Of a stretch of 47,476 nt of DNA, positions 41,411 through 44,739 are shown piece by piece. The stretch is from Flavobacteriales bacterium. GTDB lineage: Bacteria; Bacteroidota; Bacteroidia; Flavobacteriales_D; Crocinitomicaceae. The position numbers and the translations under genes are program-made. Position 1 is the stretch's first letter. Each line of letters begins with the position of its first letter. The DNA lies in NCBI GenBank assembly GCA_022361195.1, contig JAKSBJ010000267.1:1-47476 (forward strand), in the 5' to 3' direction. The notes under the pieces are model-generated. The model did no database searches. It saw only the letters and a list, made by a program, of their open reading frames with translations, and was not told where the DNA came from.

Positions 41411-43171
41411 TTATTCTTCTGACTTTTTCGGCGTCTTTTTTACAACCGATCTGTATTTTAAATAAGAAACGATATTCAGTACGAAAATAGACGCTACGGT
41501 AACATATACCCATGAAGGAATTGGAATAGGATCTCCTTGTGCATAGGAATGTAATCCACTGAAATAAAAGTTCACTCCAAAGAAAGTCATTATAATGGAA
41601 GCATAACTCCAAAGAGACGCCGTGTTAAATGCAAATTGACCTTTCAAGAATGGAATAAAACGGAAATGCAAAATAATGGCATAAGCAATAACCGAAGCTA
41701 AAGCCCAGGTTTCTTTCGCATCCCATCCCCAATAACGTCCCCAGCTTTCATTGGCCCAGACACCTCCTAAGAAAGTTCCGATGGTTAGCATGAACAATCC
41801 AATAATAATTACCATCTCTGACACATAAGTCAGTTCTTTGGTAGTTAAGAGCATTCGTTTTTTGTTACTCTCATTTAAAAAAAGGTTCATCACCAAAATG
41901 ATTAAGCCTAAAATGGCTCCAAGCCCAAGGAATCCATAACTTCCCGTGATGACTGCCACATGGATCATTAACCAATACGACTTTAAAACAGGAACCAAAT
42001 TGGTAATTTCCGGATCCAATGAATTCATGTGTGCCACAAACAACATCAACCAAGCTAAAATTCCGGTAGCACCCAATACCACCTTTGATGATTTGGTAAA
42101 TATTAATCCTGCCCCTACTGTTATAAATGCAATAAACACTACCGCTTCGTATCCATTACTCCATGGTGCGTGGCCAGATAAATACCAACGCATTCCCAAG
42201 CCTATTCCATGCGCAATGAAAAGTAAAAAGAATAGCCAGGTTCCAATTCGCATTGGCCATTTCAACTTGACCGAAGGCCTAAACAAACTAATAAACTGTA
42301 AAATCAATAAGAGTAAGCCCAAAGTAATGTAAGCGTTCTTAAGTCTTTTAAAGAGATCCAATTTATTATAAGTGATCTCCATTTGAACCTTAGACTTAGA
42401 TGGTAATAAGCCTTCTGGACTAATTTTTCTTTGGTACGTATCAATTAAATCCACCATCTTATCAGCCGATTTCCAATTACCGGTTTTATGACCGTTGGAT
42501 ACCGCTAAATTGTAATAAGGGATGATGGTTGAAACAAAATCCAGGTCTTCTCCCTCAAAAGGTAATTCCTGATCGAAAGGCGAATACCAGCTGTTATTCG
42601 GATCATCCCGTAATGGTAAAATTCTTAAATAATGGCCCGTAAAGAGTCCATATAACACAAATACCCTTTCGTCTGTTTTTAAGACGTCTTTATCATATTG
42701 ATTTCTTTGATTTGCCTTTTTTCTTCTTGCTTTTTCAGCATCCTCAGCCAATACATAACCATCGAAGTTTATACCAAAAAAGTCGTGCAATGAGGCATAT
42801 TTACCAGTCAGGCTCAGTTTATCTCTAATTGGTTGCCCCGAAACATAAATCAAGGGCTCCTCCTGCCAGGTTAATACATCTGTATGTATTCCCAAAAAGA
42901 CTTGCATGGCACTCAAATCGTCATAAGTATCACTTCTACGAATCTTCTTCATCACATCTGTCGCCAGGGTATGAACAGGCTTAAAACGTCCTCCTTGATC
43001 CTGAACTAAGAGATGACCATAATATTCGGCATGATCAGCATCTATGACCTGAACTCCATTAGGACCTTCTCCTTGTCCAAAAGATAAGGTTCCGGCAGTC
43101 ATTAAAGCAACAATCAACCAACTACTTAATTTCTCGCGTTTTTCTCTAATTTCAGCCGATTTTCTAAGCAA
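41411..43171 (-). CDS. ccsA: cytochrome c assembly CcsA part (probably the 3' half of a broken ccsBA)
   Basis: 586 aa from TTG 43171; the frame is open back to about 43258. It contains the CcsA heme-handling site, WGRYWGWDAKETW, and the His-bearing LHSYAQGD and MIHVAVITGSYGFLG segments, with several TM helices. No ATG or GTG precedes the TTG, and the next ATG falls in a membrane helix. Upstream in the same frame lies LGFLINLFSRGSRFSYLL, which continues the last helix of ResB, as in fused CcsBA proteins of Bacteroidota. Together with ResB it would be about 1040 aa, the fused size. The CcsBA role is to carry heme and attach it to c-type cytochromes. Confidence 0.8.
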   Translation of the reverse strand: MLRKSAEIREKREKLSSWLIVALMTAGTLSFGQGEGPNGVQVIDADHAEYYGHLLVQDQGGRFKPVHTLATDVMKKIRRSDTYDDLSAMQVFLGIHTDVLTWQEEPLIYVSGQPIRDKLSLTGKYASLHDFFGINFDGYVLAEDAEKARRKKANQRNQYDKDVLKTDERVFVLYGLFTGHYLRILPLRDDPNNSWYSPFDQELPFEGEDLDFVSTIIPYYNLAVSNGHKTGNWKSADKMVDLIDTYQRKISPEGLLPSKSKVQMEITYNKLDLFKRLKNAYITLGLLLLILQFISLFRPSVKLKWPMRIGTWLFFLLFIAHGIGLGMRWYLSGHAPWSNGYEAVVFIAFITVGAGLIFTKSSKVVLGATGILAWLMLFVAHMNSLDPEITNLVPVLKSYWLMIHVAVITGSYGFLGLGAILGLIILVMNLFLNESNKKRMLLTTKELTYVSEMVIIIGLFMLTIGTFLGGVWANESWGRYWGWDAKETWALASVIAYAIILHFRFIPFLKGQFAFNTASLWSYASIIMTFFGVNFYFSGLHSYAQGDPIPIPSWVYVTVASIFVLNIVSYLKYRSVVKKTPKKSEE

Positions 43172-43215
43172 ATAGCTGAATCGTGAACCTCTGGAGAATA
43201 GATTGATTAAAAAGC

Positions 43216-44538
43216 CTAGGCCAACAAAGTATAACCAATATAGGTTGTGTAAGTTCCTGGTCTGTCCTGATTCACCGACAAGATAGTACCTCCCTCATCC
43301 TGATCGTAAGAAGATTGGAAAAAACGATATCCACGATAATCCAAAACATTGTTCATATAGATTCGATGTTCTTCGTTCACTCCATTTTCCATATCAATTA
43401 AAGTCACCTCACTGGCAAAAGAAGATGGATTCATCGTTCCTGGATAACGTTCTAACTGAAAATCTCTTAAATGAATAAAGAAGGGTAATTCAATAATTTT
43501 TGATCCATATCCCAATACATACTCCAAATTCCCCATTTTAAACTGAGTTTTATTTGGGGCAATTCCTTTTCCACCTCTTAACACAACTTCCTTAGATAAA
43601 TCTCCCTGCTGCACTAAAAGAGTCACGGCCTTAGAACCTTCAATTTCCTCTTTGGACTCAATAACCTGTAGTTCGGCACTTTTATAGTAAGCGTTAAATA
43701 CAAATTGCTGTTGCCCTACCATATAAAGTCTTTTAGGCACAAAGCGTTGTAAACTATCTCTAACCAAAGTTCCCTCCGACTGATCACTCATTTGTAAATA
43801 AGGCAAATCAAAAGGAGTTTGAACCATTAAAGCCGAATCTGTTTCAATGACATGAATGGCCTCTGTATGCTCATCATTATTAAAAGCAATTTTATAACCA
43901 CCATCATTTAAAACATCTCCGCTTTTTAAGTAATTATAATGTCGTCCACTTCTACCCACAGTCACTATTTCAAGATAAGGCTGTCCCTGTGTTTTCCCCA
44001 CCGGAATCAAGGTATCTTTGACATTCTCCATCAAAGAAATGAACTCAAAACGAGTTTCCTTTGTCTCACCTGGAAAGAGAAATTCATGCTCAAAATAGTT
44101 GTCCGTCCCTTTTTCCATAATAACCGGAAAATCGTAAACATACTGTTGAACATTGTCATGCACCTTGAATTGCATATAGGTGTCAGAACTAATAATCTCA
44201 TTTGAGGAAGCTCCCTCACGAATACTCATTACTCCTTCGAATCCAACTTTTCGTGTCATCCATGCTCCTGCAATGATTACCAGGAATGCAACATGAAAAG
44301 TCAAGGAACCAATCTTTTTTACTTGCAATAACTTATAACGGTAAATGTTAAAAATCATCGATAAACTCAAGTAAGCTAGAAGTCCCTCAAACCACCAGGC
44401 TTTGTAAATAACCTTTTGAGCTACGGCTGTATTATACCATTCTTCAATAAAAGTAGCACGAGCAATGGCAAAGAAAAAAGCAGCTAAAGCAACTGCCATT
44501 AGGGGCATTGAAAATATTTTATGGAGGACTTTTGTCAT
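43216..44538 (-). CDS. ccsB: ResB/CcsB part of cytochrome c synthetase
   Basis: 440 aa from ATG 44538, which has AAGGA nearby and an upstream TAAATTTG box; an in-frame TTG start 41 codons earlier is less likely because the usual N-terminus begins near MTKVLHKIFSMPLM. Three N-terminal TM helices, then a large periplasmic domain with FQSSYDQDEGG and a terminal SVNQDRPGTYTTYIGYTLLA, in which a TAG breaks the last TM helix. In a typical fused CcsBA the chain goes on as a helix plus a basic loop, exactly what the -1 frame encodes here. Confidence 0.85.
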   Translation of the reverse strand: MTKVLHKIFSMPLMAVALAAFFFAIARATFIEEWYNTAVAQKVIYKAWWFEGLLAYLSLSMIFNIYRYKLLQVKKIGSLTFHVAFLVIIAGAWMTRKVGFEGVMSIREGASSNEIISSDTYMQFKVHDNVQQYVYDFPVIMEKGTDNYFEHEFLFPGETKETRFEFISLMENVKDTLIPVGKTQGQPYLEIVTVGRSGRHYNYLKSGDVLNDGGYKIAFNNDEHTEAIHVIETDSALMVQTPFDLPYLQMSDQSEGTLVRDSLQRFVPKRLYMVGQQQFVFNAYYKSAELQVIESKEEIEGSKAVTLLVQQGDLSKEVVLRGGKGIAPNKTQFKMGNLEYVLGYGSKIIELPFFIHLRDFQLERYPGTMNPSSFASEVTLIDMENGVNEEHRIYMNNVLDYRGYRFFQSSYDQDEGGTILSVNQDRPGTYTTYIGYTLLA

Positions 44539-44589
44539 GGGAATATCCTTATCGATGAATTCTGGCTTCCTTCTAAAAGCAAACGACGA

Positions 44590-44597
44590 CAAATTTA
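44590..44597 (-). promoter_or_regulatory. -7 box upstream of ccsB
   Basis: Minus-strand TAAATTTG, full consensus, about 50 nt before ATG 44538, within a CGACG/CGTCG inverted repeat. It supports the later start. No clear -33. Confidence 0.4.
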
Positions 44598-44739
44598 CGT
44601 CGAATTTTAATTCTTTTTCGAATTCACTCAAGTGAAATTGATCCTTCTGCTGAAAAAACAACCATTCGTTGCTTTTTATCTACGAAAAAACCTTTGTACT
44701 CAACAAATTAAGAATGATTTGTATTTCATTTAAATTGTA

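Follow-up and report, generated by a model that had tools for sequence, protein, structure and literature searches.

The window that we analyzed, a 47,476-nucleotide stretch of DNA, carries on its minus strand a ccsBA gene that is divided between two reading frames. By Pfam, the upstream piece carries a ResB domain and the downstream piece a Cytochrom_C_asm domain, so both are present and in order. The CcsA piece also matches TIGR03144, at a score below the cut-off of that model. The whole gene belongs to the fused CcsBA type and is the predicted System II cytochrome c synthase of a relative of Crocinitomix. As printed, it does not form one continuous reading frame and is therefore a broken member of the fused CcsBA class. 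The open reading frame listed for CcsB (43216-44661) begins with TTG, and the true start is likely to be ATG 44536-44538, the position at which its nearest relative (protein P0001) begins in the alignment. Coordinates of the individual features are collected in the table.

Features of the interrupted ccsBA gene (positions refer to the window)
Feature	Position	Strand	Basis
CcsB (ResB) half of ccsBA; likely start	43216..44538	-	Pfam PF05140; start by P0001 alignment; codons checked
TAG ending the CcsB frame in the last helix, 4 residues past the GY motif	43216..43218	-	codons checked
Overlap of the two open frames, 79 nt; coding signal switches at 43221	43216..43294	-	coding scan
T_TTG tetramer, the only possible slip site that keeps the register of relatives; frequent by chance	43225..43228	-	
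CcsA half, -1 frame; annotated-style ORF from TTG 43171	41411..43217	-	Pfam PF01578; TIGR03144 below cut-off
His aligned with H. hepaticus H83 (TM-His2)	44293..44295	-	alignment
His aligned with H. hepaticus H761 (P-His1)	41960..41962	-	alignment
His aligned with H. hepaticus H858 (TM-His1)	41666..41668	-	alignment
His aligned with H. hepaticus H897 (P-His2)	41549..41551	-	alignment

The frame break is present in the sequence as given. The CcsB frame terminates at TAG 43216-43218 within the last predicted membrane helix of CcsB, and the -1 frame, free of stops from 43294 onward, reads VGLGFLINLFSRGSRFSYLL and continues through CcsA to 41411. A coding scan based on hexamers and trained on this genome places the switch of coding frame at 43221, within the 79 nucleotides where the two open frames overlap. 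The earliest start-like codons of the CcsA frame are TTG 43171, TTG 43117 and ATG 43102, with no GTG ahead of this ATG, and the lone TTG at 43171 sits 45 nucleotides downstream of the CcsB stop. These results bear out the original prediction, which described a fused ccsBA split by a -1 frame change through the loss of one base within the last CcsB helix, with no proper start for CcsA and no standard slippery heptamer (none occurs in the 79-nucleotide overlap).

The nearest proteins among the best 120 listed, from 7997 candidates scored, are CcsBA proteins of Crocinitomix catalasitica (P0001 and P0002), which have the same order of domains and are 73-74% identical to the read-through query over 96% of its length. 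Unlike the window gene, each is a single unbroken protein of 1043 amino acids. Identity to P0001 is 76% in the CcsB half, 73% in the CcsA half and 77% in the 60 residues around the junction. Because these values are similar, we see no other decay in ccsBA, and no further damage was seen in either half. The two pieces also match the fused CcsBA of Helicobacter hepaticus (PDB 7S9Y, 7S9Z), whose 942-amino acid chain, in contrast to the window gene, is unbroken. The haem-ligand histidines given for that protein in Table 1 of PMC11322641 (H83, H761, H858 and H897), two transmembrane and two periplasmic, all align with histidines of the window gene (4/4).

The search for relatives covered 149 genomes, that of the window included, and gave a CcsB match in 105. 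The best-matching named genomes are Crocinitomix, and we infer that the window belongs to the Crocinitomicaceae. As counted from the result table, the best match lies within a single open frame of 1000 amino acids or more in 96 of the 104 other genomes with a CcsB match. Some of these 96 matches cross a stop, which in loci L004, L008, L026 and L028 precedes the CcsB start. The eight shorter frames comprise four at or near contig ends (G002, G007, G093 and G132), one with a stretch of N at the junction (G056), one that is simply a shorter frame (G008) and two that are frame-broken (G067 and G135, both draft genomes). In G135, the CcsB half shifts frame near a variable acidic insertion (L187 2700-3060).

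At the junction itself, the CcsB and CcsA halves are in the same frame in 104 of 108 comparable loci, a count that is based on the frame of each of the two matches, includes some organisms twice, and leaves out two loci with one half only as well as two extra copies of the window locus. Four loci are out of frame: the window, G067 (L027), and two natural two-gene forms, one in Aquimarina agarivorans (L071) and the other in a genome of the Saprospiraceae (L095). The search for a relative that shares the window's split found none. The break in G067 lies in the same helix and is a different, larger loss (L027 / L191, contig C323 near 14462), estimated by eye at about 13 bases relative to L026 in a draft genome of 82% completeness.

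Protein searches for the same split elsewhere gave a similar outcome for the CcsB piece, with nothing closer than P0051 (67%) among the best 120 of 394 listed. These 120 do not include the CcsB piece of the window itself. The CcsA piece of the window (41411-43171) was itself found, as P0240, among the best 120 of 7885 listed, where it is the representative of a 90% cluster with three member sequences. The other two members may be independent, or may come from further gene calling on the same data. Should they prove independent and likewise start at the break, a simple assembly error would be unlikely. No report of a frameshifted ccsBA was found among the open-licence PubMed Central papers listed, one of the listings covering 15 of 2,723.

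The genome, which is 98.4% complete in 404 contigs, has a single CcsB, matched as two stretches of the same frame, and a single CcsA. No second copy of the ccsBA DNA was found in it, and no cytochrome bd subunit I; System I was tested through a single family, CcmH, which was not found either. C-type cytochromes and haem-copper oxidases were found, however: there are seven Cytochrome_CBB3 matches (six above the cut-off), a FixO subunit, and two matches to the haem-copper oxidase subunit COX1. Oxidases of the cbb3 type carry c-type haem, and the second oxidase is presumably fed by cytochrome c. A true ccsBA null should be costly here, and CcsBA is reportedly essential in many organisms (PMC11322641).

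To gauge how often frames break elsewhere in the assembly, we sampled 617,060 bases of its 5.43 Mb, a set that includes the window and contains 28,348 N. Among 127 adjacent pairs of reading frames, 15 change frame without a nearby ATG, and ccsBA is one of the 15; the 112 pairs with a nearby ATG fell outside this examination, and the scan misses breaks that lie near an ATG or leave a short piece. Pfam was run on ten of the 14 other pairs, and NCBIfam on five of these ten as well, while L157, L166 near 7592 and L168 near 4697 were outside the family scan. None of the ten consists of two halves of one family. For seven pairs (L140, C1 near 5577, L127, L149, L142, C1 near 63796 and L166 near 886), a broken gene was rejected because the pieces belong to two different families, and the other three (L165, L172 and L168 near 2175) may be of either kind, since a solid family match is lacking for one of their pieces. 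In the remaining pair, L147, a one-base difference does break another frame: contig C30 ends in a stretch that it shares with C14 at 441 of 449 positions, but a run of T there is one base shorter than in C14. This loss may be an error or may mark a variant copy. The two contig ends concerned (L147 13883-14330 for C30 and L127 1-449 for C14) are 98% identical. Two further contig ends of the same assembly (L129 18255-19146 and L148 15871-16762) share 894 bases at 88%, and their outer parts are nearly identical.

We considered whether the locus instead encodes two working proteins, a CcsB that ends at the TAG and a CcsA started from TTG 43171. CcsB and CcsA are described as separate genes in many organisms (PMC10663686, PMC11322641), separate genes also occur in other Bacteroidota (L071, L095 and the ResB-sized proteins), and a CcsA begun at 43171 would retain an N-terminal hydrophobic stretch. 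The two-gene forms of A. agarivorans and the Saprospiraceae genome resemble the window in that CcsB and CcsA occupy two frames, but they differ from it in having a whole last CcsB helix and a CcsA ATG at the CcsB stop. In both (L071 4740-5100 and L095 4740-5100), the CcsA ATG overlaps the CcsB stop or lies almost next to it. The window CcsB, however, ends four residues after its GY motif, with the last helix incomplete, and offers TTG 43171 as the first start-like codon of CcsA, an ATG coming only at 43102. Moreover, the -1 frame retains conserved helix sequence upstream of that TTG. Among 120 ResB-sized proteins, whose ends were taken as given and may in part be contig ends, 32 extend 24-30 residues beyond the GY motif, which takes them past the helix; 3 stop within 10 residues of it, 1 at 11-23, 11 at 31-60 and 66 further on, and 7 have no such motif. 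Natural fission is thus improbable, and the window ccsBA looks like a broken fused gene.

Even less probable is the idea that -1 ribosomal frameshifting on T_TTG 43225-43228 joins the two frames, and equally improbable is its extension, wherein the sole cytochrome c synthase is made by this shift and the split gene meters cytochrome c maturation. The frames do overlap by 79 nucleotides, the TTG of the tetramer is the third codon before the stop, and a slip there would give IGYTLVGLGF, which has the same length as the IGYTLLGLGF of relatives. Against this, the overlap contains no heptamer of the form X_XXZ_ZZN, and of 208 long open reading frames of this genome, 40 have T_TTG within their final 26 codons and 200 have some Z_ZZN there. 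In E. coli, U_UUG, measured within a group of four motifs, gives frameshifting only 1.8- to 3.6-fold over background, and this with the help of a pseudoknot (PMC4066793). The downstream RNA (43120-43215), folded without pseudoknots, is not unusual (z 0.25; 121 of 200 shuffles are as stable), and the shift is not conserved, close relatives being in frame.

In the two more probable readings, one base has been lost, either from the assembly or from the organism. We favor an assembly or sequencing error, with a probability of about 0.7. This reading is supported by the in-frame relatives, the intact nearest proteins, the undecayed halves and the four aligned histidines. It is also supported by a genome whose sole CcsB and CcsA are these, in which CcmH and cytochrome bd were not found and yet c-type cytochromes and two COX1 oxidases are present, and by the one-base difference at the C30 end. 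A survey by Antonov et al. 2013 (PMC3711429) describes singleton frame changes, in which one protein hit spans both halves, as expected sequencing errors rather than genuine indels. As in the window, one genome is shifted, the halves match one protein of another species and there is no conserved shift motif; that survey used complete genomes, whereas the window comes from a 404-contig draft. Counting against an error, the break site is not a long homopolymer, and none of the ten scanned pairs is a second Pfam-supported gene broken in two, which suggests that errors of this kind are rare in the assembly.

That same scarcity of breaks in the assembly sample speaks for a real and recent one-base loss in the sequenced population, as do the frame-broken ccsBA of G067 and G135 (both drafts) and the three member sequences of the P0240 cluster. 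In that event, the cells would lack cytochrome c maturation or retain only traces of it. The sole CcsB and CcsA, the failure to find cytochrome bd or CcmH in the genome, the persistence of c-type cytochromes and two oxidases, and the otherwise undecayed halves all argue against such a loss, which we regard as unlikely, although clearly less so than fission or recoding. Since no relative closer than 74% was found among the matches listed, a recent real loss would be indistinguishable by comparison. Of the three explanations that the original prediction had left side by side, an error is therefore the best supported and a recent mutation comes second, while programmed frameshifting has one common tetramer as its sole positive support.

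If the interruption is an error, the organism would produce the usual fused protein. The base missing from the assembly would, we infer, be present in the organism, and a single CcsBA would move haem across the membrane and attach it to CXXCH cytochromes that would in turn serve the two haem-copper oxidases. The split would then be a matter of annotation only, and ccsBA here should not be called two genes or taken as a lost pathway. A real break would indicate a respiration-deficient population or an unknown bypass, given that no second maturation gene or cytochrome bd was found. The natural fissions of CcsB and CcsA that we saw keep the last CcsB helix whole, a feature that may help annotators to separate true fission from a broken fused gene.
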